Shown piece by piece: positions 45,967 to 61,790 of a stretch of 64,000 nucleotides of DNA (positions are counted from its first letter, which is position 1; each line of letters starts with the position of its first letter). A model generated the notes under the pieces. The model worked only from the letters and a program-made list of their open reading frames with translations. It made no database searches and had not been told where the DNA came from. The stretch is from a virus. A program made the position numbers and the translations under genes. The stretch lies in IMG/VR virus record IMGVR_UViG_3300032291_001290, positions 37,417-101,416 of that record; one strand, given 5' to 3'.

Positions 45967-46758
45967 ATGGACCATTACGTAACTTTAGGTGTTGATAAAA
46001 ACGCTACACCTGATGATATCAAAAAAGCATATCGCAGATTGGCAAGTAAACATCACCCGGATAAGGGTGGTGATACTTCCACGTTTCAAAAGATTGAAGA
46101 AGCATATCGTATATTAAGCGATCCAAATCAACGACAACAATATGATAACCCTATGCCACAAGGGTTTCATTTTAATCAAGGTACACCCGGTGGTTTCCCA
46201 TTTAGTTCAGGCGGATTTGCTGATTTCTTTGATATGTTTCAGCAACATCAAAATAGACAACAAAGACCACAACAACAAGTTTTTAGAACTAGTGTTCAAA
46301 CAACATTGCAACAAGTATATTTCGGTGAAGAACAAACATTGAAATTACAAACCCCAACTAATACACACTTGATAAAAATTCAAATACCTAAAGGTGTTCA
46401 AAATGGGAATCAAATTAGAATTGATAATGCATTTGACGGTGCTTCATTAATGGTTGAATTTAGAATTCAACCTGATCTTAAGTTTGAAAGAAAGAACCAC
46501 GATTTGGTTTGCAATCATCCAATATCAGTGCTTGATTTGATAACAGGAACTACATTTGAATTTACTACTATTTCGGGAAAAACATTTGAAGTATCTATAA
46601 AACCAAAAACACAACCATACGTGCAATTAAAAATTGCAGGACAGGGTATGCCCGTATACGGTACTAATCAGTACGGAGACCAAATAATATTGCTTAAACC
46701 ATTTGTTCCTGATATAATCGATGAACAAATTGTTACAAGCATTCTTCAATCTAAATAA
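45967..46758 (+). CDS. dnaJ: DnaJ-type (J-domain) co-chaperone, CbpA-like without zinc finger
   Basis: 263 residues. J domain at 1-65 with the H-P-D triad at 30-32 (SKHHPDKGG), which stimulates DnaK ATPase. A Gly/Phe-rich linker follows (QGFHFNQGTPGGFPFSSGGFADFFDMF), then two C-terminal beta domains (VQTTLQQVYFGEEQTLKL; ISVLDLITGTTFEFTTISGKTFEVSIKP). There is no cysteine-rich zinc domain, as in CbpA/type B proteins. Its own sigma-70 promoter suggests early onset. The next gene is ClpA, pointing to a phage-encoded protein quality module. No in-frame ribosome site precedes the ATG. Confidence 0.93.
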   Translation: MDHYVTLGVDKNATPDDIKKAYRRLASKHHPDKGGDTSTFQKIEEAYRILSDPNQRQQYDNPMPQGFHFNQGTPGGFPFSSGGFADFFDMFQQHQNRQQRPQQQVFRTSVQTTLQQVYFGEEQTLKLQTPTNTHLIKIQIPKGVQNGNQIRIDNAFDGASLMVEFRIQPDLKFERKNHDLVCNHPISVLDLITGTTFEFTTISGKTFEVSIKPKTQPYVQLKIAGQGMPVYGTNQYGDQIILLKPFVPDIIDEQIVTSILQSK

Positions 46759-46773
46759 TAAAAGGAAGTTAAT

Positions 46774-49038
46774 ATGATAAACTCACCAGAAATCGAAAGC
46801 ATCATTGAACAAGCGATTGAATCTGCTAAAACTAGAAAACAACAGTACGTTACTGTTGAACATCTATTACTTGCATTAATTACATATCCCCCATTTAAAA
46901 AATGTGTGGGTGGTTTTGGTGCAGACATTGATACAATGGAACAAGAAATCACTGCATACTTAGATAGCTTACATGCTATTATTTCTGCAACTGATGAAGT
47001 AGTGCCACGCAAAACAAATAGCCTTGAACGTGTTATTAATCGTAGTGTTACGCAAGTATTGTTCACCGGTCGCAGACAAGTAACTACGATTGATTTATAT
47101 CTAAGTATTGCCGCAGAAGGTAATAGCCATGCACATTACTTTCTACTAAAATACGGTATTAATAAAAATGAATTTGTTACATACTGGCAAAAACATTATA
47201 AAGGTGGTGAACATAATTCACATCTTAGCGAAAATCAAGCTGATGAAATATTAGAAGAATACACCATCAACTTATCGCAACTTGCTGAACAAGGTAAACT
47301 TGAACCATTGATTGGTCGTAGCAAAGAACTTGATGATATTGTCAACGTACTAGCTAAACGATTTAAAGCAAACGTATTGATGGTGGGTGACCCGGGTGTT
47401 GGTAAAACTGCTATTGCAGAAGGTCTTGCTAGCTTAATTCAGAATGGTGATGCACCTGAGTTCCTTAAGGATCATGCTGTCTATAGTTTGGAAGTAGGCT
47501 CACTACTTGCAGGAAGTAAATATCGAGGTGACTTTGAGGAAAAAGTAAAAGCAGTATTGGATGCATTGAATACTAAAAAGAAAGCAATTCTTTTCATTGA
47601 CGAAGCACATACTATGCAGGGTGCAGGTTCAGCAAACAATGGTAGTGTTGACTTTGCTAACATGATTAAACCTGCTATCACTAAAGGTACACTAAAGGTT
47701 ATTGCAAGCACGACTTGGGAAGAGTACTACGAAAGTTTTGAGAAGGATCGTGCCTTGATGCGTAGGTTCTATCGTGTAGCAATTGATGAACCCTCCCCTG
47801 ATTCAACTATTAGAATTCTTTCAGGACTTAGTACACGGTTGAATGATTTCCATAGTGTTGAGATTACTGAGGATGCAATTAAAGCCGCAGTAGAATCATC
47901 AGTACGCTATATTCATGACCGCAAGAATCCCGACAAGAGTATTGACTTGCTTGATGCGGCTTGTGCTAAACAACGTGTTGCAGGCAATAAGGGTGCATTG
48001 ATTACTAAAGAACTTGTGTTTGACCAAGTTGAGAAGTTCACAGGTGTGCCGGCAGACAAGATGAAAGGTGATAACTTTGACCTTATCAATAACCTTGAAA
48101 TTAACATCAAAGGTAAATTGTATGGACAGGATGAAACTGTTCAGCAAGTATTGGAACGTATCTATGTTAACTTTGCTGGTATCGGCAATGATACTAAACC
48201 AACAGGTAGTTTCTTGTTCTTAGGTCCAACAGGTACAGGTAAAACAGAACTGGCTAAGTTGTTAAGTAAGAATCTTGACATGCCATTGCTCAAATATGAT
48301 ATGAGTGAATACAGTGAGAAACATTCAGTCTCAAGTTTGATCGGCCCTCCCCCTGGTTATGTTGGCTTTGGTGATAGTCAAGTTGGTGGTGGTCGTTTGA
48401 TTAGCGACTTGAGTAAGAACCCGCATGCTATCATGTTGTTTGACGAAGTTGAGAAAGCACACCCTGATATCTTTAACATCTTCCTACAGATGCTGGATGA
48501 AGGTCAGATTACAGGTAGTAACGGTAAGAAAGTTAATTGTAAAAATGCTATCATCATTATGACTAGTAATTTAGGCAGTTCTGACGGTGAACGCAATAAC
48601 ATTGGTTTTGGTTCACAAGAAAAACAGGGAGAAGATGATAAAGCATTAAAAGAATTCTTTAAACCTGAGTTTAGAAACCGTGTTGATTTGATTTGTAAAT
48701 TCAATAAACTTGACACACTTGCTATTAAGAAGATTGTAATTAAGTTTACTGATGACTTGAAAAAGAGCCTCATCGAAAAACATAACATTAGTCTTGCACT
48801 TACTGAACCCGTTATCAATTATTTGGCTGAGCAAGGATATGATAAAAAGATGGGCGCACGTCCACTATCACGCAAAATTGATGAATTAATTAGGGTACCG
48901 TTAAGTAAAAAAGTATTGTTTGAGCGAATCAAAAATAGTACAATTACTGTTATTATGAATGAAGATAAAGTTGATTTTACAGTTGCACAAAAACTCACAG
49001 CTAAGGTAAATGAAAATGGGATTATTGAAGTCAGTTGA
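46774..49038 (+). CDS. clpA: ClpA-like AAA+ unfoldase, complete, with ClpP-binding loop
   Basis: 754 residues, like E. coli ClpA (758). An unfoldase that feeds ClpP. N domain (1-140) with two Clp repeats; first AAA+ module with Walker A GDPGVGKTA at 205, LFIDEAHTMQGAG, and arginine-finger ALMRRFYRV; second AAA+ with GPTGTGKTE at 484, GPPPGYVGFGDSQVGGGRL pore region and FDEVEKAHPDIFN. The ClpP-docking loop is I610-G611-F612 (NNIGFGSQ) in the ClpA position (E. coli IGL). The middle coiled domain of ClpB is absent. It has a ribosome site AAAGGAAG and follows DnaJ. It probably redirects host ClpP. Confidence 0.95.
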   Translation: MINSPEIESIIEQAIESAKTRKQQYVTVEHLLLALITYPPFKKCVGGFGADIDTMEQEITAYLDSLHAIISATDEVVPRKTNSLERVINRSVTQVLFTGRRQVTTIDLYLSIAAEGNSHAHYFLLKYGINKNEFVTYWQKHYKGGEHNSHLSENQADEILEEYTINLSQLAEQGKLEPLIGRSKELDDIVNVLAKRFKANVLMVGDPGVGKTAIAEGLASLIQNGDAPEFLKDHAVYSLEVGSLLAGSKYRGDFEEKVKAVLDALNTKKKAILFIDEAHTMQGAGSANNGSVDFANMIKPAITKGTLKVIASTTWEEYYESFEKDRALMRRFYRVAIDEPSPDSTIRILSGLSTRLNDFHSVEITEDAIKAAVESSVRYIHDRKNPDKSIDLLDAACAKQRVAGNKGALITKELVFDQVEKFTGVPADKMKGDNFDLINNLEINIKGKLYGQDETVQQVLERIYVNFAGIGNDTKPTGSFLFLGPTGTGKTELAKLLSKNLDMPLLKYDMSEYSEKHSVSSLIGPPPGYVGFGDSQVGGGRLISDLSKNPHAIMLFDEVEKAHPDIFNIFLQMLDEGQITGSNGKKVNCKNAIIIMTSNLGSSDGERNNIGFGSQEKQGEDDKALKEFFKPEFRNRVDLICKFNKLDTLAIKKIVIKFTDDLKKSLIEKHNISLALTEPVINYLAEQGYDKKMGARPLSRKIDELIRVPLSKKVLFERIKNSTITVIMNEDKVDFTVAQKLTAKVNENGIIEVS

Positions 49039-50298: not shown

Positions 50299-53200
50299 AT
50301 GAAAATAGCCGCACTACTTGAAAGCCGTAAATGCCTACTTGAAGGCGGTAACCTATCTATTGGATCACAGCAAGCACAACAATTAGACCTAAAGGTTACA
50401 AATCGTAACTACATGGTTCCTAAATTAAATGAACTATTATATGCAATCAATCAGGCTTATGCTAAGATGTATAAGCAACCACTATGGAATCCAAAAGTAT
50501 TAGCAAGTGGTGAGTTCTTAAGTGGAAGTAGTTTACACTTCTTTAATGTTAAGGGTATTTCTGATGAAACTTTTGTTGCAAAGAAACCAACTGTTGGTGA
50601 CATTGATACAATGGTTGACAAAACAAAAGAAACTGATTTACAACAATTCTTAACTGCATACACAAATAAACAAATTGGTCCTGCTAAGTTTTTAGGCTTT
50701 CAACGTGGTAATGAACAGTTCTCAGGATTGTTTGAATTACAAGACCCACCGGTAAAGGTACAAATAGATTTTGAATTTGTAGAGTTTGAAAATGATTTGC
50801 CAACTGATTGGGCTAAATTTAGTCATAGTAGTTCATGGGAAGATTTGCAAGCAGGTGTTAAGGGTGTATTCCACAAGTGGCTGATTCAAGCATTCACTGC
50901 ATTAACACGTAAAGATTTTTTACTACGCAAAATGAAGGGCCGCGGTAAACTACGTCAAGAGGTTGATGAACCCATGACAGATAACATGTATAGTTTTGCT
51001 GTGTCTAGTAAAGAAGGTGGTGGATTACGTGCAAAGTACGAACCAGTTTTAGATGAAAATGGTAAGCCATTAGTAATCGATGGATTGCCCGTAATGCGTG
51101 AGGCACCTACTGCAGGCTACCAACAAAACATTGGACAGATTTTTTCAACAATCTTAGGACAACGTTTAAGTCCTAAACAAGCACAAGCATTACAAAAACA
51201 ATTCTGGTCGTTCACTGGCTTATTGAATGTCATGAATACATTGATGAGTCCAGAAGAAAAAGAACAAGTATTGAACGGATTCCTGCAAAAGACAATTGGT
51301 CTCGGTGCTCAAGGAATGTACAAAAACAATCCTGATAAAGATATTGCCGAAAAGACTACTGCCATCAACACAATGCTTCAAACATTGAAGTTACCTAAGC
51401 CAGCTAATTTAGATAAAATGCTACAAGATTATCGTCAAGCATACAAGATGACTGGCACAGATGAAGGTGTTGAGACAAGAAAAAATATTGTCAAGAGTAT
51501 GGCTAAAAACACACTTGATGAGGCTGCACCGAGTTATAAACGCAAAGGTATTCAACACATATACAATCCTGGATCAAGTACTGAGATGAAGGATGTAGAC
51601 TTCATTAACTTTGCAAAAGAAATCGCACAAGACGGTGGCAAGTTTCAAGGCGTTCCAATCAACTTGAAAGTTGATGGTGCTGGTATTAGATTTGGTAAAA
51701 CACCTGAAGGTGAGCCATTCTTCATGACCAGTCGTGTTGACAAGCCCATGACAGCAGATAATATTGGTGATTTTGAAAATTACGGAAGAAGTCAAGGTCA
51801 AGGAGCAGAACAGTTAGCACGTACACAGAATTATGATAAAGCATTATCTACTATTGTTAATGCTGATTTTATGAAAGATATCCCATCTGATACTATTGTT
51901 CAGGCAGAGATGTTATTCAATCCAATGGCACAACAAGATGATGGTGGTTATAAATTTGTAAATATTCCATACGATCCTAAGAAATTGGGAAAGTCAATGA
52001 CTCTTGTTCCAATAAGTGTTAAGCAATATAGCACAGGGGAAACAAGACCTGATAGTCAAAAGATTAAGCAAGCATTAATCAAAGACAGCACACCTGACAT
52101 TAAAATGATAAACAATACTCTATCACATAAGGGTATTGATGTTAGTAAAATCATTAATCCAATTATTAAAAATGCCGAGACACTTACAAACGCTGTAGGA
52201 CAAAGGGGAGATACTCCTGACAAACAAAAAGCAAAAACTATATTAAGTAAAGCAAGACAAGCATTAAGCAGTGCTATTATTAGTAGCCCCATTGCAGGAA
52301 AAGATCAATTGGGTGATATGATTGAAGGTCTTGTTATCAATATGCCAAGTGGTACGCTTGCAAAAGTTACTAGCCCTGATATGCAAAACAAGATGGCTGC
52401 AAAGCAAGCTATGAATAAGAAACCAACAGAAGGTAGTAATCGTGTTAAACCTGCTGTAGTTACAATTGGTAGTTTTGTAGGACATAAAGGTCATCAACAA
52501 TTAATTCAACAAACGATTGATACTGCTAAAAGTGTAGGTGGTGATCCTTATATCTATGTTAGTCCTGTAATGGGACCAGATGATCCTATTCCACCAGCAG
52601 ATAAAGTTAAAACATTACAAGCATTGTATCCACAATACGCAAACAATATTCAAGTTTGGAATCCTCAAGGTACTCCAATGAAGAAGATTGAGAAAGAACT
52701 TGTTATTCCAGCAAATAGTCCATACAACAAAGTCATCTTATTAGTGGGTGATGACCGTTATGAAGGTATGAAAAACTGGATGAATAGTTTAGAAAAGCGC
52801 ATGAAAGATCCAGCAGCCGTTGCTAAGTATGGCGGCACACAAAATCAAGTTGACTTTGAAACAGTTAGAACAGAACGTGATCCAACTAAAGGTGGTACTG
52901 GTATTAGTTTTACACAACTACGTAACAAACTAAAAGATTCCAATGCAAGTGAACAGGACAAATTGAACTATTGGATGCAAGCATTCGACGGTGAAACCTT
53001 GGGAGCAAATTGGATTAAACATCTTATGGACGTAACAGCAAAGAACATGGGTATCCAGCAACAACAAGCTATTAAAGAATATGTTGAGAGAGTTAAAGTA
53101 TTGTTGCCACACGCTACTCCTGAACAAAAAGCTAAAATTTACGAATCATTAGTTAGAGCAAAAGCTAAGTTGGATGAAGGCAAGAAAAAGAAAAAGAAAA

Positions 53201-54474
53201 AATCTTCAAAATCACTGAGAGGTTATTTCTTCCCGGGTTATGCCTATTATGGTGGCGGAGAATCTGGTGAAGGTGGTGGCGGAGACGGCGGTGGCGAAAG
53301 TATAAACCGTGGCATGTCGGAAGATGAATTCGAAGAGGGTATCGGTAAAGCATTGGGCACCGCAGCTTTAGCAGGTAGTCTAGCATTAGGTGGCTTATCA
53401 CAAATGGGTAAAACAACAGACACCAACTGGGATAAATTACCACAACAAATGAGTACTCAACAAGATACAACCGGTGATGAAAAGGTTATGTCTGTAACCG
53501 GACCTAACAATAAAGGTGAGTATCGTGTTAGAGTTACTACAGGTAATGATGTACAAGAATTTATTACTAAAACTCCACCAAAGAGTTTAGAAGAAGATAA
53601 AGAAACAGATCCTGTGACTAAAGCAGTAATAAGTTTTTACAAACCTGTAGTCAATAATATTCATAAAGAAAAAGTAGATAACTACGTTGACCAAGCACGT
53701 GACCTATTACAAAAAACAGATGATCCTAAAGTTCGTAGCAAGTTAATTGATATCTTTAAAAAAGGTAAAGAGAATCCATATATACAAGGTGGAATAGTTA
53801 CTACTATCGGTGCATTGTTAGCAGGTGGTGTATTAACCACTGCACAAAGAATGGGACTAAGTCCTTCACAAACTAACCTAGCACTACAGGCAATATTAAA
53901 CACTGTTATTCCTACTGTTGTTTCACGTATCAATGGTAAAAGCTGGAGTGATACTGTCAAGTATACATTGGCTAGTGCGGGTATAGGAACTGGCATTGCT
54001 GGTGCAGGTTTAATAGAAGCTGGAAACATTGAACGTAAAGAAAGTTTTCGAGGACGTACTACCCCGGATGTTGAATACATTGTAAAAGATGATAATGGAA
54101 ATATCGTAAGACATTGCAAGACTAAAAAAGAAGCCAAGCTATGGTATGATATGATTAATCTAAGTCAAGAAGAAATGTGGGCTAAGTATCCTCAATTAAA
54201 AGTTAATGAAGAATTAAACGAATTAATGAAAATGGGTGCTACTATTGAACCTATGGAAGAAAATATTCTAGGATTCATGACCAAATCTCCCGCAAAGAAA
54301 TCTTCTACTAAGGTAGATGACTTTACCGCTAAACTTATATCAAATAGACAAAAATCACAACCATCAACTAAAGAAAAAAGATATAGTGGATACGAAGAAT
54401 ATATAAAAGACAAAGAGTTAAATCCTCAGCAGGTCAATATGTCCGAAAGCCATGATTATTTAGAAGAAAAATAA
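50299..54474 (+). CDS. Giant multidomain protein: nucleotidyltransferase, ATP-dependent ligase, HxGH nucleotidylyltransferase, hydrophobic C-terminus
   Basis: 1391 residues. MKIAALLESRKCLLEGG begins with a helix ending L-L-E (6-8), like a capsid-targeting sequence. Residues ~65-200: Pol-beta-type fold with G-S-S (76-78) and D-I-D (101-103). Residues ~430-700: all ligase motifs, with K457-x-D-G (motif I), IVQAEMLFNP (motif III), E676-G-L-V-I-N (IV) and K689 (V). Residues ~715-900: HxGH motif at 729-732 (GHKGHQQLI) and LLVGDDR, as in NMN adenylyl- and cytidylyltransferases. After a Lys- and Gly-rich linker (~1010-1050) come hydrophobic, Gly-zipper-like stretches (ALGTAALAGSLALGGL; GGIVTTIGALLAGGVL). 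The C-terminus repeats small disordered pieces. The whole could act as an injected nucleic-acid repair or modification protein; that is inference. Confidence 0.85.
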   Translation: MKIAALLESRKCLLEGGNLSIGSQQAQQLDLKVTNRNYMVPKLNELLYAINQAYAKMYKQPLWNPKVLASGEFLSGSSLHFFNVKGISDETFVAKKPTVGDIDTMVDKTKETDLQQFLTAYTNKQIGPAKFLGFQRGNEQFSGLFELQDPPVKVQIDFEFVEFENDLPTDWAKFSHSSSWEDLQAGVKGVFHKWLIQAFTALTRKDFLLRKMKGRGKLRQEVDEPMTDNMYSFAVSSKEGGGLRAKYEPVLDENGKPLVIDGLPVMREAPTAGYQQNIGQIFSTILGQRLSPKQAQALQKQFWSFTGLLNVMNTLMSPEEKEQVLNGFLQKTIGLGAQGMYKNNPDKDIAEKTTAINTMLQTLKLPKPANLDKMLQDYRQAYKMTGTDEGVETRKNIVKSMAKNTLDEAAPSYKRKGIQHIYNPGSSTEMKDVDFINFAKEIAQDGGKFQGVPINLKVDGAGIRFGKTPEGEPFFMTSRVDKPMTADNIGDFENYGRSQGQGAEQLARTQNYDKALSTIVNADFMKDIPSDTIVQAEMLFNPMAQQDDGGYKFVNIPYDPKKLGKSMTLVPISVKQYSTGETRPDSQKIKQALIKDSTPDIKMINNTLSHKGIDVSKIINPIIKNAETLTNAVGQRGDTPDKQKAKTILSKARQALSSAIISSPIAGKDQLGDMIEGLVINMPSGTLAKVTSPDMQNKMAAKQAMNKKPTEGSNRVKPAVVTIGSFVGHKGHQQLIQQTIDTAKSVGGDPYIYVSPVMGPDDPIPPADKVKTLQALYPQYANNIQVWNPQGTPMKKIEKELVIPANSPYNKVILLVGDDRYEGMKNWMNSLEKRMKDPAAVAKYGGTQNQVDFETVRTERDPTKGGTGISFTQLRNKLKDSNASEQDKLNYWMQAFDGETLGANWIKHLMDVTAKNMGIQQQQAIKEYVERVKVLLPHATPEQKAKIYESLVRAKAKLDEGKKKKKKKSSKSLRGYFFPGYAYYGGGESGEGGGGDGGGESINRGMSEDEFEEGIGKALGTAALAGSLALGGLSQMGKTTDTNWDKLPQQMSTQQDTTGDEKVMSVTGPNNKGEYRVRVTTGNDVQEFITKTPPKSLEEDKETDPVTKAVISFYKPVVNNIHKEKVDNYVDQARDLLQKTDDPKVRSKLIDIFKKGKENPYIQGGIVTTIGALLAGGVLTTAQRMGLSPSQTNLALQAILNTVIPTVVSRINGKSWSDTVKYTLASAGIGTGIAGAGLIEAGNIERKESFRGRTTPDVEYIVKDDNGNIVRHCKTKKEAKLWYDMINLSQEEMWAKYPQLKVNEELNELMKMGATIEPMEENILGFMTKSPAKKSSTKVDDFTAKLISNRQKSQPSTKEKRYSGYEEYIKDKELNPQQVNMSESHDYLEEK

Positions 54475-54493
54475 TTCGTACACCTCAAACTGA

Positions 54494-54501
54494 TGTAAAT
54501 A
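54494..54501 (+). promoter_or_regulatory. Possible late promoter core (TGTAAATA)
   Basis: TGTAAATA in ATGTAAATAATTATATC, ahead of a ribosome site AAGAGG and the ATG at 54525. Two mismatches; tentative. Confidence 0.4.
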
Positions 54502-54524
54502 ATTATATCATTTAAGAGGATCAA

Positions 54525-55430
54525 ATGGCAACTAAGAAAACCAAACAAACTGAAGAAAAAACTGTACCAGTAGAAGCTGTGCAGGAAATTGCCGAACAAG
54601 CGGCACAAGAGCAACAACAAGCCCCGCAACAGGGTCAAGTTCAAGTTAACGTAGACTTTCTAAAAACTACCCGTGTACACATTGCTATGCCATGTTACGG
54701 TGGTATGTTAACTGAAAGTACATTCATGTCATTTATTAAATGGGCAAACACGGCCCGTCAGCTTGGCATTGATTGGACATTAGAAACAATGGTTAACGAA
54801 TCATTGATTAGTCGTGCCCGTAATACATTGACTGCAAAGTTCTTGGACATGCCAGACGCAACACACTTGTTCTTTGTTGACGCTGACATTGGTTGGGAAC
54901 CATGGCACTTATTAGTATTACTAAACCGTGATGTTGATGTTATCGGTGGATTATATCCAATGAAGACTATGCCAATCAAGTGGGTAGTTAACGGCTTTGA
55001 AGGTGCAGAAGAAGGTGCTGACGGCTTACAAGAAGTAAGTAAAGCAGGTACAGGTTTCTTGTTGATGAAGAAGCATGTATTTGAAAAGATGAAAACTCAT
55101 CCTGCAGTTAAGCAGTACAAGAACGACATTGGATTAGATCCAAAGTATGATGTACATTTGAAAACATACTTTGATACCGCAGTTCGTCAAAATCGTTATT
55201 ATAGTGAAGATTGGACATTCTGTGAAAACTGGCGTGACATGGGCGGCCGTATTTGGGTTGACAAACGTGTATTATTACGTCACTCAGGTTCTTATGTGTT
55301 CTGTCAAGAAAATCAAGAACACTTGATGAAAACAATTGGACCTATGTTCTTAGAACAGCAACAACAATTAGCTGGTTTAAAACTAGTTGATAAAGACGGT
55401 AATGAAGTCAAGTCAATAACAGTTCAGTAA
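54525..55430 (+). CDS. Glycosyltransferase-like protein (GT-A fold)
   Basis: 301 residues. After a ~45-residue Gln/Glu-rich N-terminal tail comes VHIAMPCYGGMLTESTFMSFIKWANTA, the first strand of GT-A glycosyltransferases, NESLISRARNTLTAKFLDMPDATHLFFVDADIGWEPW with the D-x-D metal site (VDADIG), IGGLYPMKTMP, and the C-terminal SEDWTFCENWRDMGGRIWVDKRVLLRHSGSYVF with the E-D and His residues. Common in T4-like phages; may glycosylate virion proteins, phage DNA or surface sugars. Donor and acceptor unknown. Followed by a strong terminator. Confidence 0.85.
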   Translation: MATKKTKQTEEKTVPVEAVQEIAEQAAQEQQQAPQQGQVQVNVDFLKTTRVHIAMPCYGGMLTESTFMSFIKWANTARQLGIDWTLETMVNESLISRARNTLTAKFLDMPDATHLFFVDADIGWEPWHLLVLLNRDVDVIGGLYPMKTMPIKWVVNGFEGAEEGADGLQEVSKAGTGFLLMKKHVFEKMKTHPAVKQYKNDIGLDPKYDVHLKTYFDTAVRQNRYYSEDWTFCENWRDMGGRIWVDKRVLLRHSGSYVFCQENQEHLMKTIGPMFLEQQQQLAGLKLVDKDGNEVKSITVQ

Positions 55431-55433
55431 AAG

Positions 55434-55454
55434 AAAGCCCCGAAAGGGGCTTTT
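55434..55454 (+). terminator. Rho-independent terminator
   Basis: AAAGCCCC, GAAA loop, GGGGCTTT then TTG: a tetraloop hairpin right after the glycosyltransferase stop and just before the next late promoter. Confidence 0.92.
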
Positions 55455-55458
55455 GTTT

Positions 55459-55466
55459 GATAAATA
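55459..55466 (+). promoter_or_regulatory. Late promoter core (GATAAATA), leaderless arrangement
   Basis: GATAAATA, then CTAT and the ATG at 55471. Four bases separate core and start codon; the upstream terminator fixes this as a new unit. Confidence 0.68.
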
Positions 55467-55470
55467 CTAT

Positions 55471-57225
55471 ATGAATTTAAAAGAACTTGATTCCTTTCGT
55501 CTTTCCGATGCAGTCACCTTCCATGATGAACTTAATCCAAAGTTATGGAATAATAATAACTTGCGTCCGGAAGTTAAATTACAACTTAAATTAATAGCAA
55601 GAGACTTTTTAGAAGAATTAGGTATAAAGGGAATAGATGTAGAGGACTTAACTGTTTCAGGTAGTAATGCCGCATATAGTTATACCCCTCATTCAGACTT
55701 AGATTTACACATATTAGTTGATATGAGTAAAATGCCCAATGATGAAATATATAAAGAACTATTCAATGCAAAAAAATCATTATACAATGATAGCCACGAT
55801 ATAAAAATACATGGGGTACCCGTAGAGTTATATGTACAAGACGCCAGAGAACCAGTAATAAGTCTAGGTGAGTACAGTATCCTTAATGATAAATGGCTTA
55901 GAATCCCAACTAAGCGTAGAGCAAATTTTGACCAAACCGCCACTAAAGCAAAATATGAAAAATTATTAAATCTTATAGAGATAGCACTTAAGACCAAAAA
56001 ATATAGTAAAGTTCAAAATATAATTAAAACAATTAGAAGATATAGACAAGCAGGATTAGATAATGGTGGTGAGTTTGGTCCTGAAAATTTAGCATATAAA
56101 GCCTTGCGTAGTCAAGGTTACATTACAAAATTATATGATTTAAAAGATAAACTACATAGTGAGTTATTGACTATTGAAAATATGTATCAACCAATCACAG
56201 ACGAGGATTACGACCCAAATGGTCCTCCCCCTGGTCCTGAGTTTAAGCCAACAATGCCGGCAGGTACAGTTAGAGTAGATGTAAGCGATGTATATGATTG
56301 GTATAAGTTAGGTCAACATATCAGTAACCTTAAAGGGTTAGGTAAGCATGACTTTGGTAAAGGACCTCCAAGTACTATCATGGCATTTGGTGATGAAGAT
56401 TTAGAACACCAATACATCAACGATTTAAAAAAGACTGGATTGACAACAACTGATATTGATCCAGTTGACCCCAATCAACCTAAGGGTATGAAGCGTCAGA
56501 AAGTTGATCCTACATATAATGTTAATGAAGGCTTTGACCAACCATATCCCTTAACGTGGGAAAAGAGTGAGTACGGTGATGTTGATGCATTAGCTAAATT
56601 ACCAGATGGTAGCCCACTAAGTATCATGTTCAACAATCAACAAGATGACGAAGGTGAAGAAGTCGTGCAAGTTGAATTTTATAGAAACAACAGTCAAGAA
56701 GTAACGGGCGAGGGTGACGCAATGCGTGTCTTTGCTACAGTATTGACTGCGATTCAACAGTATGTTAAAAAGTACAAGCCTGTAAGATTGACATTTTCAG
56801 CAAGGAAAGAAGTGGAACAGGGTCAAAACCCTGAAAGTCGTGCTAAGTTATACGATAGATTGGTACAGCGTTACAGCAAAGCATGGGGCTATAGAGCATT
56901 CAGGGCAGACAATGGCGATTTAGTTATATATGAATTATCTAATGTAAACAAAAAAGTAGCAGAGGATGAAACATTGCAATTTGCTGCCGAAAAAACACCA
57001 GCAATAAATCCATATGGTGGCCGTAAAGATATTCAATATCGTGGATCAATGTCAGAAGCAAGTGGTTATATTCCCAGTGAAAAAGAGAAAAACGACTCAC
57101 GTTTTAGTTCAGCATTGACAGGAGATGTTCATCCTGATTCAATTAAAAAGAACGCAAAAGCATTCGGATGGCGCACTAGTAGAGCCGGAATTCCCCCAAC
57201 AGCAAAAGCAAACGGCAAAATCTGA
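55471..57225 (+). CDS. Nucleotidyltransferase fused to GNAT-like and disordered domains
   Basis: 584 residues from ATG 55471. Residues 60-135 are a Pol-beta-type nucleotidyltransferase: G-S-N (64-66) and D-L-D-L (76-79) in TVSGSNAAYSYTPHSDLDLHI, with a third acidic position in HGVPVELYVQD. A helical region and a linker (PPPGPEFKPTMPAG) follow, then residues ~365-520 (GFDQPYPLTWEKSEYGDVDALAKLPDGSPLSIMF...GEGDAMRVFATVLTAIQQYVKKYKPVRLTFSARKE...RAKLYDRLVQRY) form an acetyltransferase-like domain paralogous to the protein at 63343. The C-terminus has FGWRTSRAGIPPTAKANGKI. There is a V-A-E at NKKVAEDE, although without the special repeat DNA. Candidate virion-packaged enzyme. Confidence 0.82.
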   Translation: MNLKELDSFRLSDAVTFHDELNPKLWNNNNLRPEVKLQLKLIARDFLEELGIKGIDVEDLTVSGSNAAYSYTPHSDLDLHILVDMSKMPNDEIYKELFNAKKSLYNDSHDIKIHGVPVELYVQDAREPVISLGEYSILNDKWLRIPTKRRANFDQTATKAKYEKLLNLIEIALKTKKYSKVQNIIKTIRRYRQAGLDNGGEFGPENLAYKALRSQGYITKLYDLKDKLHSELLTIENMYQPITDEDYDPNGPPPGPEFKPTMPAGTVRVDVSDVYDWYKLGQHISNLKGLGKHDFGKGPPSTIMAFGDEDLEHQYINDLKKTGLTTTDIDPVDPNQPKGMKRQKVDPTYNVNEGFDQPYPLTWEKSEYGDVDALAKLPDGSPLSIMFNNQQDDEGEEVVQVEFYRNNSQEVTGEGDAMRVFATVLTAIQQYVKKYKPVRLTFSARKEVEQGQNPESRAKLYDRLVQRYSKAWGYRAFRADNGDLVIYELSNVNKKVAEDETLQFAAEKTPAINPYGGRKDIQYRGSMSEASGYIPSEKEKNDSRFSSALTGDVHPDSIKKNAKAFGWRTSRAGIPPTAKANGKI

Positions 57226-57230
57226 TAACT

Positions 57231-57273
57231 TTCCATATTATGGTATTTTGATAAATACTATATAACATTGGAA
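57231..57273 (+). promoter_or_regulatory. Late promoter inside a long imperfect inverted repeat
   Basis: Core GATAAATA at 57250-57257. Inner arms GTATTT/AAATAC (57243-57258) and outer arms TTCCA (57231-57235)/TGGAA (57269-57273); the right outer arm carries the GGA ahead of the ATG at 57281. Confidence 0.5.
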
Positions 57274-57280
57274 TCACATT

Positions 57281-58084
57281 ATGCGTTTTACAGAAATATC
57301 AGAATCTACAGTAGCCGGCTCAATCTCAACCGTAGCAATGCCTATGATGGCTCAAGCCCGAGAAAGTGTTAAAGTTCCTGGACTAAAACCAGTTGAATAT
57401 TTGATGAAGGGTAAAGTCAAAAAGAAAGGTTCTTACGGTAATAGTATTGCAGAAAGCAAAGTTAATGAAGAAGACATTTCTGAACAAGACTTAATTATTG
57501 TTCCTGGTCAGGGTCGCACTAGTAAAACTGGTTTAATTAAACATGGCCAAAGTCGTTTAGACCATGAAGTAGAAATGGCACGTAGTGATTTATTCAGTGC
57601 CGCAAAAAATGCTAAAAAAGTATTTAACATGATTAAAGATGTTAGTGAAGAAGAAGGTCTTGAAGGCTGGGTACAAGAAAAGATTATTAAAGCCAATGAC
57701 TATCTAAACACTATCCGTGAATACTTAGAAGGAAAACAACTTCAAAGTGTGGCGGAAGTAACCGGAGATGAAAAATTTGATAAGATGATGACAACTATCA
57801 AACAGGGCACTAACAAACAAAAAACCGCAGATCGTAAAGAACAACAAAAACAAACCCAACAACGTGCCCGTGATGCTTTTGGCAATATGTTTGGTGGCGG
57901 CAATCCTGCTGATAAACTCAGTATCAGGAAAGGTGTAGCGGAAGGTGCAAAAGTTGATAGAATGGTAAAGCATGTCAAGTCTAGCGAAAAGAAACTTGGT
58001 CACTCAGATAAAGAAGCAGAGAACATTGCATGGGCAACAGCTAACAAGCGCGGTATGTTAGATAACAAGAATAAGAAAAAGTAA
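57281..58084 (+). CDS. Small modular protein with two (G/S)VAE linkers; candidate capsid-internal protein
   Basis: 267 residues. MRFTEISES: short helix with I-S-E at 6-8 followed by Ser. Two copies of the 13-bp linker repeat give SVAE (156-159) and GVAE (218-221), splitting the protein into three parts: residues 1-159, largely helical (DLIIVPGQGRTSKTGLIKHGQSRLDHEVEMARSDLFSAAKNAKKVF); 160-221, disordered and Lys/Gln-rich; and 222-267, AKVDRMVKHVKSSEKKLGHSDKEAENIAWATANKRG, a small helical module with a G-x-S-x-x-x-A-E-x-x-A-W-A pattern that recurs in aquatic phages. Four bases before the next gene, which has the same linker. Confidence 0.8.
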   Translation: MRFTEISESTVAGSISTVAMPMMAQARESVKVPGLKPVEYLMKGKVKKKGSYGNSIAESKVNEEDISEQDLIIVPGQGRTSKTGLIKHGQSRLDHEVEMARSDLFSAAKNAKKVFNMIKDVSEEEGLEGWVQEKIIKANDYLNTIREYLEGKQLQSVAEVTGDEKFDKMMTTIKQGTNKQKTADRKEQQKQTQQRARDAFGNMFGGGNPADKLSIRKGVAEGAKVDRMVKHVKSSEKKLGHSDKEAENIAWATANKRGMLDNKNKKK

Positions 58085-61000
58085 TAACATGAGTAATATT
58101 TTAAAAGGTTTATTGAACGAAGCCAATCCATATCGCATAAGCGAACCAGAACGTGAGTATGGTGCGCCATTTCAATCTCGTCCAAGAATGGGACCACAAG
58201 AACCAGAAGATGTACCTGATGACTTACCACCACAAGATCCATTCAAACAAGACCCTGCTAAACTAGCAAAAGTAGAATATAGCAAAGATGAAGGTGAAGC
58301 ACCAAACGGCAAACGTTATAACACGGTTATGTCAATTAGTGGTCCTTCAAACGCAGTACGTAATGAAGTTGAGATGTTTAACAAACATCATTGGGGTGCA
58401 AAAAAGATTGTTGACATGAAAACAATTGAAGCAAAGACTCCAAATGGCCCTGCACAGTATACAGTATACATAGTTGACAATCACAAGTATGGCATGTGGA
58501 CTCCATTTAAAGGTGAAAAGCCAGTTGGTGAACCTTTAGTGTTCAAAGAAAGTCAAAATGGTATTAGTGCTAGTGATTTAGCTGACATACTTTATAATCG
58601 CTTAGAAATGCGATATCCTGATATTGTCTCACGTTACGGGCATGAAGTAGTAGGTGATACAATAATGGATGTAGCTGACTTTCATGCTGGCTCAGAAGAA
58701 TTAGGCACTAGTGATGTAAGTATAATGATTCGTCAAATATTGAAAAAATTAGAAAACTACAATGTTGACGAAAGTAAAGAACAAGATTACGGACCCGAAT
58801 ATCAAGCAATGGTAAATCGTGTAGGTCAATTAGCAAAACAAGGTGAGCGTAAAACTGTTTATGATCCTGTTAAGCGTGTGTATAAGACGGTGCCAGTTAA
58901 CCCACCTAAACAGCAAGGCATGGCGGAAGGATCCAATGACGATAATTTCACAATTAATGATATTCATCAACTAGAACAGATTAAAGATTTTGAAACTTTA
59001 AAAGCTAGAGCCAAATATTTAATCAAAGGTAAACCTGCAAGACGCATGAAGCCTGAAAAAATTGCATATTTTTATGACAGAGTAGACACATTAACATCAC
59101 CCATAAAAGTGATTAAAATGATGTATGACTTGTTATTAGCTGGTGAAGGTATGAAAACAATAGGTTCACAAAACAGTACTAATCCAAATGCATATCAAAA
59201 ACGTTTTACCGAAGAAGAACAAGGTGTGGCGGAAGCCCGTACTGACAAAAATCTAACTGAACCAACTTCCTACATACAAGTTAAACAACTTATCGATAAG
59301 ATGGATAAGGGTGGCAAAAATCGTATAGCAAAAGCATTAAGAAAAAATTTAGGTATCACTACACAAGATCAATTAGATGAAAAGTGGAGTCAAAAGTATA
59401 AGAGTAGCATAAATTGTTCACATCCAAAAGGCTTTAGTCAAAAGGCTCACTGTGCTGGTAAGAAAAAGCACAATGAAAGTATTGAGATGGAAATGGTCTG
59501 TGAAGATTGTGGAATGTGCGAGACACATGCCGACCATCAAAATCTAGACGAGGCATGTTGGAAAGGTTATCACAAAGAAGGTAACAAAAAAATGTTTGGC
59601 AAAACATACCCTAACTGCGTGAAGAATGAAGATATTGAAGAAGATAATTCTAGGATCGCAAGAAAACCAGGACAACCTGCTAATAGTAAAAAGCATAGCG
59701 ATTTATACACAGATGAAAATCCTAAAGGCACTATCACTGGTTTAAAATTTGCTACAGCAGAGGATGCTAGAGCCAGTGTATCAAAGATTCGTAACAGTAG
59801 TCGTAGTCACGCACATAAGATTCAAGCCGCTGTAGCAATGGAACAACGTGCTAAGGCTGCAGGAAAATCTGAGGCAGCGTCAGTATATAGAAAATATATA
59901 AATGCTACTAAAAAAACTGACGAGGGTATGGATTTAGAAGAAGCCTGTTGGGATACACATAAGCAAGTAGGTATGAAAAATAAAGGCGGCAAACAAGTTC
60001 CTAACTGTGTGCCTAAGGAAAGTGTGGCGGAAGGCAAAGTTATTAATACCTATCTTTGGCATGGGTCAAGACAAAAGATTCCTATGCTAGAGCCAAGACA
60101 ATCAGTTGATACAGGCGGTGCCGCAGGTAGCAATCAAAATGCTATCTATGCTACCAGTGATCCTAAAGTGGCAATAGCAGTTGGTGGATTGACTACTCCT
60201 GATTCAGATACCGCAATGTTTCCCAACGATCCGCAGATGGTTTTATTCAGTGGCAAAATAAGAAAAGGAGAAAATGTGTATCTGCACAAATTACCTTTCT
60301 ACGGCACAGACGGTAAACCGCAGTTTGTTCAAGGTGCCCATGACAGAGAATTTTATTCAATGCCCGGAGTAAAAGGCATCAAACCTGTAGAAATAAAAGC
60401 AGTTCCAGTAAACAAATATTTGAATTTAATCAGAAAAGCAACGCCAGCAGACTTAAAATTGCGTAAGAAGTATATGAAACAGCAAGGTGTGGCGGAAGGC
60501 TCCGATTCCAATCTATCATATCAAGGTAATTGCACAGAAGATGATGTTATTGAACATATTTTTGGTGATGTTAATAACTTTGCTAACATGGTTGAAGAAC
60601 ACGGTGACGAATTTACTGTTGGTGATTTAGTTGTCAAGTATGATCCAGAAACAGATGTTCATAGTTTCTACTATAAGAAGCAAGGTGTGGCGGAAGAACA
60701 ACATAGTTGCCCACACTGCGGTGGTGAGATGGTTAGTGAAGAACTAATGAACGAAAAGAAAGATGCTTGTTACTACAAAGTTAAGAGTCGTTATAAAGTA
60801 TGGCCTAGTGCTTACGCCAGTGGTGCATTAGTTAAGTGTCGCAAGAAAGGTGCCGCTAACTGGGGCAACAGCACCAAGAATGAAGATTCTATGGATCAAG
60901 TAGACGAGAGTTTGCATGATTGGTTTAATAAAGAAAAATGGGTTCGTATGGACACCAAAGGAAATATAAAAGGACCATGTGCAAGAGAACCAGGTGAAGG

Positions 61001-61563
61001 CAAACCAAAATGTCTTCCACAGAGCAAAGCACACAGTTTAGGTAAAAAGGGTCGTGCAAGTGCAGCCCAACGCAAACGTAGAGAAGATCCTAATCCTGAT
61101 CGTAGTGGTAAAGCTATCAATGTTAACACTAAGAAAAAGTCAAATGAAGGTGTGGCGGAAGATTCTAGTAACAATATCCCAACTATTGGGATCAATGTAA
61201 GAAGTGACGGTGACATTGATTATGCTAGTTTGATAGTTGACGGGAAAAAGAAATACGAATCTAGAAAAACTGACAGTCTTAGACCATACGTGGGTAAAAC
61301 AGTTGGAATTGTTAGAACTGGCAATGGCCCTGCAGTTGCGATTGGACAAGTGACTATAGGTGAACCCATAGTAGTAGATGCAGAAAAGTTCAATAGACTT
61401 AGAAAACAACATCTAGTCCCACAAGGTAGTAAATTCGATATTGATAGTGATGGTACAAAATATCTGTATCCAATGATTAATCCAGTACGCTGGGATAATG
61501 AAAAACCAATAAAAAGTAAGGGTATCGTTTCTAGAAAAATGCAAGAGCAAGGTGTGGCGGAAG
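57746..61563 (+). repeat. Nine dispersed copies of a 13-bp in-frame linker repeat
   Basis: Consensus GGTGTGGCGGAAG, at 57746, 57932, 58917, 59223, 60021, 60486, 60684, 61149 and 61551 (start positions). All are in the same codon phase, GGT-GTG-GCG-GAA-G, encoding (G/S)(V/M)AE. GTG-GCG is unusual next to the GTA/GTT and GCA/GCT favoured in this AT-rich DNA, so the DNA itself has been copied. Copies lie at borders between unlike domains. Confidence 0.93.
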
Positions 61564-61790
61564 AATTTGAATTAGCAGGTGTAGGTGTAGCATACGAACT
61601 AGGTCGCAAAGCATATAAGCAAGGTATGACAATCAGAGACAATCCTTATAGTGCTACAAAAGAAGCACGTAAGTATGATGAATGGGAAAAAGGTCTAGAA
61701 CGTGGCAAACACGATGCAAATGATGCTAGACAATTCCGTAACAGTATAAAAGAAACTAAGAGTAACATTCTAAAAGGTTTAATGGGATGA
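58089..61790 (+). CDS. Modular 1233-residue polyprotein with seven (G/S)(V/M)AE linkers: ART-like, zinc-ribbon, ASCH and RMF-like modules
   Basis: Begins MSNILKGLLNEA (helix ending L-N-E, 9-11). Linkers end at residues 280, 382, 648, 803, 869, 1024 and 1158. Module 1 (1-280): DNHKYGMWTPF and ASDLADILYNRLEMRYPDIVSRYGHEVVGDTIMDV. Module 2 (281-382): helical. Module 3 (383-648): Cys-rich pieces CSHPKGFSQKAHC, MVCEDCGMCETH, ACWKGYHKEG...YPNC and ACWDTHKQVG...VPNC. Module 4 (649-803): TYLWHGSRQKIPMLEP, NAIYATSDPKVAIAVGG, DREFYS, ADP-ribosyltransferase-like. Module 5 (804-869): short acidic. Module 6 (870-1024): CPHCGG ribbon, KKDACYYKVKSRYKVWPSAYASGALVKCRKKGAANWGN and basic RKRREDPNP. Module 7 (1025-1158): ASCH/PUA-like. 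Module 8 (1159-1233): RMF-like. I infer capsid packaging and protease cutting; no homologue was searched. Confidence 0.88.
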   Translation: MSNILKGLLNEANPYRISEPEREYGAPFQSRPRMGPQEPEDVPDDLPPQDPFKQDPAKLAKVEYSKDEGEAPNGKRYNTVMSISGPSNAVRNEVEMFNKHHWGAKKIVDMKTIEAKTPNGPAQYTVYIVDNHKYGMWTPFKGEKPVGEPLVFKESQNGISASDLADILYNRLEMRYPDIVSRYGHEVVGDTIMDVADFHAGSEELGTSDVSIMIRQILKKLENYNVDESKEQDYGPEYQAMVNRVGQLAKQGERKTVYDPVKRVYKTVPVNPPKQQGMAEGSNDDNFTINDIHQLEQIKDFETLKARAKYLIKGKPARRMKPEKIAYFYDRVDTLTSPIKVIKMMYDLLLAGEGMKTIGSQNSTNPNAYQKRFTEEEQGVAEARTDKNLTEPTSYIQVKQLIDKMDKGGKNRIAKALRKNLGITTQDQLDEKWSQKYKSSINCSHPKGFSQKAHCAGKKKHNESIEMEMVCEDCGMCETHADHQNLDEACWKGYHKEGNKKMFGKTYPNCVKNEDIEEDNSRIARKPGQPANSKKHSDLYTDENPKGTITGLKFATAEDARASVSKIRNSSRSHAHKIQAAVAMEQRAKAAGKSEAASVYRKYINATKKTDEGMDLEEACWDTHKQVGMKNKGGKQVPNCVPKESVAEGKVINTYLWHGSRQKIPMLEPRQSVDTGGAAGSNQNAIYATSDPKVAIAVGGLTTPDSDTAMFPNDPQMVLFSGKIRKGENVYLHKLPFYGTDGKPQFVQGAHDREFYSMPGVKGIKPVEIKAVPVNKYLNLIRKATPADLKLRKKYMKQQGVAEGSDSNLSYQGNCTEDDVIEHIFGDVNNFANMVEEHGDEFTVGDLVVKYDPETDVHSFYYKKQGVAEEQHSCPHCGGEMVSEELMNEKKDACYYKVKSRYKVWPSAYASGALVKCRKKGAANWGNSTKNEDSMDQVDESLHDWFNKEKWVRMDTKGNIKGPCAREPGEGKPKCLPQSKAHSLGKKGRASAAQRKRREDPNPDRSGKAINVNTKKKSNEGVAEDSSNNIPTIGINVRSDGDIDYASLIVDGKKKYESRKTDSLRPYVGKTVGIVRTGNGPAVAIGQVTIGEPIVVDAEKFNRLRKQHLVPQGSKFDIDSDGTKYLYPMINPVRWDNEKPIKSKGIVSRKMQEQGVAEEFELAGVGVAYELGRKAYKQGMTIRDNPYSATKEARKYDEWEKGLERGKHDANDARQFRNSIKETKSNILKGLMG

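Follow-up and report, generated by a model that had tools for sequence, protein, structure and literature searches.

The DNA analysed (hereafter the window, a stretch of 64,000 nucleotides) was taken from a 101,416-base IMG/VR virus record (IMGVR_UViG_3300032291_001290). It carried T4-type genes for tail sheath, tail tube, clamp loader, and PhoH, and its source was a freshwater T4-like phage. An intact plus-strand open reading frame (ORF; 50299-54474, 1391 aa) in the window arrayed three enzyme domains in the order Pol-beta-type nucleotidyltransferase (NTase), ligase-superfamily domain, and HxGH adenylyltransferase, preceded by a short leader and followed by a variable C-terminal region (Table 1). 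Judged from its sequence, the ORF product was probably a polyprotein instead of one working protein, with an NTase and a ligase-HxGH enzyme as its predicted mature products.

Enzyme domains of the ORF

Plain Pfam, NCBIfam, and Protein Data Bank (PDB) sequence searches of the ORF detected almost nothing except a weak match to flavin adenine dinucleotide (FAD) synthetase around HKGH, and such genes are therefore annotated as 'hypothetical'. PHROGs matches were phrog_19290 at residues 23-369 and phrog_3041 ('cytidyltransferase') at residues 694-889. An earlier note on this DNA had listed the motifs GSS (76-78), DID (101-103), KVDG (457-460), EGLVIN (from 676), K689, HKGH (729-732), and LLVGDDR; all were found where the note had placed them, and the invariance of the catalytic residues in alignments of 54 non-redundant NTase relatives and 46 ligase-HxGH relatives indicated that they were no chance occurrences. 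The invariant residues were (i) G76, S77, D101, D103, and D157 in the NTase, (ii) K457, D459, G460, E537, E676, G677, and K689 in the ligase, and (iii) H729, G731, H732, and R875 in the HxGH domain. The ratio of nonsynonymous to synonymous substitution rates (dN/dS), taken between the window and four relatives, was 0.06-0.16 over all three domains.

AlphaFold models of the NTase and of the ligase-HxGH part had predicted local distance difference test (pLDDT) values of 92.9 and 91.5, respectively, and Foldseek related them to Pol-beta enzymes, RNA ligases, and the group of phosphopantetheine adenylyltransferase (PPAT), nicotinate mononucleotide adenylyltransferase (NaMNAT), and FAD synthetase. 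The three folds claimed in the earlier note, which was to fall if K457 lacked a ligase fold or residue 729 a Rossmann HxGH fold, were thus borne out by models that predicted both, and their joint presence in the ORF is virtually certain at the level of structure prediction. The GS...DxD...D series on a Pol-beta fold placed the first domain in the Pol-beta NTase superfamily; KxDG, E, EG, and K on a ligase fold placed the second in the covalent nucleotidyltransferase (ligase/capping) superfamily; HxGH and SxTxxR on a Rossmann fold placed the third in the HxGH superfamily.

Two narrower classes were tried for the ligase and rejected: ATP-dependent DNA ligase (no PF01068 match in 46 members, and no room for a C-terminal domain as described below) and Pfam RNA_ligase of the Rnl2 type (PF09414 in 1 of 46 members, at E 0.053). 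When the NTase and ligase profiles were run against PDB sequences, the only matches were weak ones to RibF, in the HxGH part. The divergence of the ligase profile precluded a pattern scan, and an alignment with cultured-phage ligases (24-25% identity) left essentially only the catalytic K, D, G, E, E, G, and K invariant. Homology to DUF6267, a distinct family whose members are ligase-like and have a KxDG motif, was considered since the ligases of phages Melnitz and P-SSM2 matched locus L093; the two families were kept separate because L093 had two ligase domains and the Melnitz/P-SSM2 match fell on the second. The tandem ligase-like domains of L093 (8086-10038) resembled the window ligase in the first copy and DUF6267 in the second.

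Table 1. Features of the polyprotein ORF in window coordinates (a slash marks a predicted cleavage point)
Feature	Coordinates	Strand	Evidence
Whole ORF, probable precursor polyprotein, 1391 aa	50299..54474	+	Nearest relative L006, 94% identity over NTase region
Leader, residues 1-15 (MKIAALLESRKCLLE), capsid-targeting type, ending in predicted prohead-protease site LLE/GGN	50299..50343	+	54/54 relatives
Pol-beta-superfamily NTase domain, residues 16-400	50344..51498	+	AlphaFold2 pLDDT 92.9; Foldseek DNA polymerase beta, prob 0.99; phrog_19290
NTase active site G76 S77 ... D101 x D103	50524..50607	+	Invariant in 54 sequences
NTase third carboxylate D157	50767-50769	+	Invariant in 54 sequences
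E408, predicted second cleavage site NTLDE/AAP in NTase-ligase linker	51520..51522	+	[L/I/V]xE in 46/46 linkers
Ligase (covalent nucleotidyltransferase) domain, residues 413-713	51535..52437	+	AlphaFold2 pLDDT 91.5; Foldseek 5d1o, Candida tRNA ligase, Naegleria RNA ligase
Ligase motif I KVDG, residues 457-460	51667..51678	+	K, D, G invariant
Ligase motif III glutamate E537	51907..51909	+	Invariant
Ligase motif IV EGLV (676-679) and motif V lysine K689	52324..52365	+	E, G, K invariant
HxGH adenylyltransferase domain, residues 714-905	52438..53013	+	Foldseek PPAT, NaMNAT, FAD synthetase, prob 1.0; phrog_3041
HKGH signature, residues 729-732	52483..52494	+	Both H and G invariant
SFTQLR, residues 870-875, second HxGH-family signature (ISSTxxR-like)	52906..52923	+	R875 invariant, T872 nearly
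E960, predicted third cleavage site KLDE/GKKK before variable C-terminus	53176..53178	+	[L/I/V]xE after HxGH in 45/47
Variable C-terminal region, exchanged among relatives, ending DYLEEK	53179..54471	+	Non-homologous in most relatives; HD, lysozyme, or amidoligase modules in others

Leader, predicted cleavage sites, and virion relatives

The T4 prohead protease gp21 cuts after L/I-X-E, a glutamyl-alanyl bond having given the first hint, and the leaders of T4 internal proteins comprise 10-19 residues (PMC9026906). The window leader ended in a site of this type, and so did those of its relatives: P1 was Glu in 54/54 non-redundant sequences, directly before the conserved GGN, and P3 was L in 36, I in 12, and V in 6 of them. 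The unleadered NTases of Vibrio phage Va1, Xanthomonas phage X1, and Stenotrophomonas phage Ps15 began with M-GGN, i.e., at the predicted mature end. HxGH relatives have been detected by mass spectrometry in the virions of three cyanophages, namely ORF154 of S-CREM2 (PMC10665884), the nicotinamide mononucleotide adenylyltransferase (NMNAT)-like protein of S-SCSM1 (PMC9602691), and gp140 (S-SZBM1_140) of S-SZBM1 (PMC9146016), and these had leaders of the same kind (MKNFSSFLTE/A, MKSFLQFLKE/A, and MRFRQFIIE/A, respectively). The capsid-targeting-like start noticed earlier therefore agreed both with the relatives and with the virion proteomes.

Within the NTase-ligase linker, [L/I/V]xE was present in 46/46 relatives (expected 10.2 from equal windows inside domains and 17.6 from shuffled linkers), and the stricter [L/I/V]xE[AGSD] in 44/46 (expected 3.5 and 5.2, respectively); Ala was the commonest residue after Glu (39 of 60). 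The ligase-HxGH linker had [L/I/V]xE in 0/47. A gp21-type protease gene (Peptidase S77, PF03420) was found in 7 of 15 carrier records. The linker counts bear on whether the product might act as a single uncut multidomain enzyme, its linker [L/I/V]xE being coincidental and its leader removed at most. Such short motifs did occur inside folded domains as well (17 in the ORF), but the excess in the first linker as opposed to none in the second, the splitting of the gene at that same NTase-ligase boundary in L042 and in cultured phages, and the swapping of ligase classes at least five times on well-supported branches of the NTase tree, independently of that tree, make an uncut enzyme very improbable. 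What the earlier note had described as one protein was indeed a single intact ORF, but its product is probably a precursor because sites of protease type, conserved among relatives, lie between its leader, NTase, ligase-HxGH, and C-terminal parts. Packaging of this product in the head, together with its cleavage, is considered highly likely.

Proposed function and alternatives

The reading preferred here, to which about even weight is given, was a head-packaged T4-like phage polyprotein whose enzymes are injected for end repair, most likely of RNA. The 15-residue leader would steer the precursor into the prohead core, and a gp21-type prohead protease would cut the conserved sites LLE/GGN, LDE/AAP, and LDE/GKK, which would release the NTase with GGN as its mature start, the ligase-HxGH enzyme in mature form, and fragments of the C-terminus. 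The internal proteins of T4 and the virion proteomes of cyanophages suggest that the enzymes would travel inside the head and be delivered into the cell together with the DNA. Their folds suggest that (i) the NTase would rebuild a damaged 3' end, (ii) the RNA-ligase-type domain would seal the end using ATP, and (iii) the fused HxGH domain would perform a linked adenylyl transfer. Activity would precede phage gene expression and would most likely be directed at RNA, e.g., tRNA cut by host anticodon nucleases. Taken by itself, end repair of some nucleic acid appears fairly likely; RNA is rated a likelier substrate than DNA, with about even odds for RNA overall. More tentative is the full picture of a virion-delivered, prohead-protease-matured RNA-repair kit that would mend RNA, host tRNA included, after its cleavage by first-line defence nucleases and before expression of any phage gene, with the HxGH domain adenylylating or de-adenylylating 5' ends during sealing. 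Phage RNA repair is known to pair an NTase with an RNA-ligase-type enzyme, and RlaP, the NTase of that pattern, has the predicted task of putting back lost nucleotides ahead of the sealing step (PMC7824862).

The best PDB matches of the ligase half were archaeal RNA ligase 5d1o (E 1.4e-4), Candida tRNA ligase (1.7e-4), Naegleria RNA ligase, and T4 Rnl2, and DNA ligases ranked below RNA ligases. DNA ligases typically have a C-terminal oligonucleotide-binding (OB) fold; only ~25 residues separated K689 from the HxGH domain, and thus there was no room for an OB domain after motif V. The RNA-ligase-like modelled fold and the missing OB room would favour RNA over DNA as the substrate. They likewise tell against an injected DNA-end repair kit, in which a Pol-beta-like polymerase and a ligase would fill and seal breaks in incoming phage DNA or its ends by the logic of LigD in bacterial nonhomologous end joining, with a neighbouring nuclease-like gene trimming the ends in split versions. 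Such a kit would suit the best NTase structural matches, DNA polymerases beta and mu, as well as the gene with a PD-(D/E)XK-like motif that X1 and Ps15 carry between their NTase and ligase genes; PF01068, however, matched no relative, and an ordinary ATP DNA ligase was already encoded by 6 of 13 carrier records, so that a DNA-end kit is judged unlikely. A Pfam RNA_ligase family member was absent from 12 of these 13 records, and a profile search of the ORF's own 101-kb record found none; given these counts for both ligase types among the 13 carriers, the packaged ligase would not be simply redundant.

The HxGH domain invites a different explanation, namely that it is an NMN adenylyltransferase that replaces the nicotinamide adenine dinucleotide (NAD+) consumed by host NADase defences, while the other two domains take part in some linked nucleotide reaction. 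NAD supply by this domain is possible: its fold matched NaMNAT, PPAT, and FAD synthetase, its Va1 and Campylobacter relatives weakly matched nicotinamide-nucleotide adenylyltransferase in PHROGs, and such a role has been suggested for the cyanophage virion NMNAT-like proteins (PMC9602691). As an account of the whole ORF it is improbable: it leaves the HxGH-ligase fusion and the obligate NTase unexplained, no kinase, Nudix, or NadV partner was present within the ORF, and sequence scores scattered over FAD synthetase and ATP sulfurylase.

The NTase model had DNA polymerase beta as its best PDB match (E 4.8e-3, prob 0.99; nothing at E <=0.001), followed by MenT4, JHP933, and poly(A) polymerases; in a viral structure library, its strong matches were uncharacterised phage proteins only. 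MenT4 and JHP933 raise the idea of a host-takeover modifier, in which the NTase would tag host tRNA or protein like MenT-type NTases and the ligase-HxGH enzyme would reverse or complete the tag; Pol-beta NTases of polyvalent proteins have been proposed as protein modifiers (PMC5512222). The MenT4 matches were weak, however (TM 0.22-0.27), and constant coupling to a sealing-type ligase suits repair better than poisoning, which leaves this idea very doubtful.

Several observations weigh against a packaged, injected RNA-repair set. As regards packaging, (i) no gp21 protease was found in the ORF's own 101-kb record, which is perhaps a fragment, (ii) the unleadered cultured homologues from Vibrio, Xanthomonas, and Stenotrophomonas phages show that the enzymes can also act unpackaged, (iii) the relatives of the polyprotein documented in virions are the cyanophage HxGH proteins, (iv) the unleadered S-SZBM1 neighbours gp141 (DUF6267, ligase-like) and gp142 were missing from the detected list (PMC9146016), and (v) the authors of the S-CREM2 and S-SCSM1 studies cautioned that non-structural proteins may be contaminants (PMC10665884, PMC9602691). 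As regards the reaction, the RlaP profile PF10127 matched 0/54 NTase members, so identity with RlaP was rejected and the NTase is at most RlaP-like in action; its best structural matches, DNA polymerase beta, are equally compatible with DNA repair; and the matches bearing on NMN as a candidate HxGH substrate were fold-level ones common to PPAT and FAD synthetase.

Each element of this reading has a precedent. Like the T4 internal head proteins (Alt and IPI-IPIII, with a capsid targeting sequence and gp21 processing), the window product had a short leader ending in L/I-X-E, putative head-internal placement, and presumed injection; the T4 proteins have single activities each, whereas the window cargo was a one-chain set of nucleic-acid-end enzymes whose internal sites would release separate enzymes. 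RlaP NTase plus ATP-grasp RNA ligase systems (PMC7824862) shared the pairing of a Pol-beta NTase with an RNA-ligase-type enzyme and the predicted restore-then-seal order, but they are expressed genes, and the window ORF had no PF10127 or PF09414 match, an added HxGH domain, and a predicted packaged precursor. The archaeal ATP-dependent RNA ligase 5d1o and the fungal tRNA ligase adenylyltransferase domain 9qw7, the best structural matches, had the same KxDG/E/EG/K series and no C-terminal OB fold; the window ligase differed in lacking a detectable sequence-profile match to them and in its fusion to HxGH. PPAT/CoaD, NaMNAT, and FAD synthetase shared the Rossmann fold and both signatures of the HxGH domain, and ligase fusion set the latter apart.

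The cyanophage virion NMNAT-like 'cytidyltransferases' (S-SZBM1, S-SCSM1, and S-CREM2) were alike in being virion-detected HxGH proteins with an [L/I]xE leader, and in S-SZBM1 the HxGH gene adjoined a DUF6267 gene with the KxDG ligase-like motif; unlike in the window, HxGH and DUF6267 were separate genes, no homologue of the window NTase family was found there, and DUF6267 was distinct and only ligase-like. phrog_27149, the ligase-HxGH fusion of Vibrio and Campylobacter phages, was the same two-domain enzyme and co-occurred with an NTase gene, but the ligase gene was leaderless and the NTase was encoded separately, far from it in the Campylobacter phages. Polyvalent proteins (PMC5512222) likewise are single phage polypeptides that are injected and combine numerous enzymatic domains; they use embedded peptidases, whereas the predicted cutter of the window ORF is the phage's own prohead protease. 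The literature search, whose coverage left out most subscription papers, turned up no earlier case of their combination into a packaged enzyme set that a protease releases.

Known phage RNA repair (T4 Pnkp/Rnl1 and RlaP systems) needs expression after infection. If the enzymes are packaged, repair would be at work from minute one of infection, just as anticodon nucleases and similar alarms go off. Should the prohead protease free them inside the capsid, T4-type heads would also serve to deliver proteins, with modular cargo. A testable role would thereby be offered for hundreds of marine cyanophage 'cytidyltransferase' and DUF6267 genes.

Relatives, split forms, and neighbouring genes

A whole-protein search of IMG/VR gave eight relatives, and an NTase profile search found 178, of which 80 were kept. 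Nearly all of them had the NTase-ligase-HxGH order in one ORF of ~900-2070 aa, and the ligase-HxGH profile identified 56 non-redundant loci, 54 with fusion to the NTase and two ending at a contig edge. An NTase profile scan of 84,980 cellular genomes hit one contig only, in a metagenome-assembled genome. The switches of ligase class on the NTase tree imply that modules were exchanged, and together with the variable C-terminal modules they show ongoing module exchange. These C-terminal modules included HD phosphohydrolase-like domains (PF13328/PF01966) at L004 7878-8393 and in L020 and L038, and phage lysozyme with LysM, amidoligase, and GP88 at L025 9686-11776, L091 8440-11979, and L040 9716-11707.

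Cultured phages displayed split forms: (i) X1 and Ps15 had four adjoining genes for NTase, a protein of unknown type with the PD-(D/E)XK-like motif, ligase, and HxGH, (ii) Va1 had a ligase-HxGH fusion ~1.3 kb downstream of the NTase gene, and (iii) Campylobacter CP220-type phages had an NTase with leader MKLSELILILE/GGN, distant from the ligase-HxGH fusion. The NTase and ligase-HxGH parts were each present in 15 Campylobacter and 6 Vibrio records, so that they belong together even when unlinked. In cyanophages and in Methylophilales phage Melnitz, the HxGH gene lay beside or near DUF6267, and since the two halves of phrog_455 were matched by separate S-SZBM1 proteins, this family appears to contain fusions of DUF6267 with HxGH. 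The HxGH 'cytidyltransferase' relatives extended to ~350-kb jumbo phages such as Cronobacter phage GAP32 (L098 4995-5552), which encoded RnlA a few kb away.

The PD-(D/E)XK label, given to the second of the four adjoining genes in X1 and Ps15 and to cyanophage relatives, was motif-based only: these proteins had no Pfam match and no mutual phmmer matches. Genes with a D...SxK PD-(D/E)XK-like motif adjoined the cassette at L009 9017-10021, L012 6722-7666, and L097 3322-4656, and the S-SCSM1 one among them was annotated as a virion protein. In Melnitz (L095 4884-9547), the PD-(D/E)XK-like gene, DUF6267, and the HxGH gene each had its own [L/I]xE leader (FLSE/A, YITE/D, and EIIE/A, respectively).

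Downstream of the ORF, the window encoded a second, different Pol-beta-like NTase (55453-57225; GSN...DLD, phrog_36119), matched by S-CREM2 virion protein ORF156 (36%, 8e-40), and a 1233-aa ORF (58089-61790) with about ten [GAS]VAE repeats resembling prohead-protease sites, segments of which were matched by S-CREM2 virion protein ORF160. The latter ORF probably encodes another head polyprotein, as its repeats suggest, and since these two further virion proteins matched genes beside the polyprotein ORF, the stretch from 50299 to 61790 seems to be a cluster of head-internal proteins. Upstream (45967-49038), a DnaJ-like gene was followed by a Clp-type AAA ATPase gene, both recognised by eye, and this pair also adjoined the polyprotein gene in L002-L008. 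A leadered GH19 chitinase-like gene and, by eye, a papain-like protease gene were located near the NTase gene at L062 10276-11070 and L072 5571-6386.

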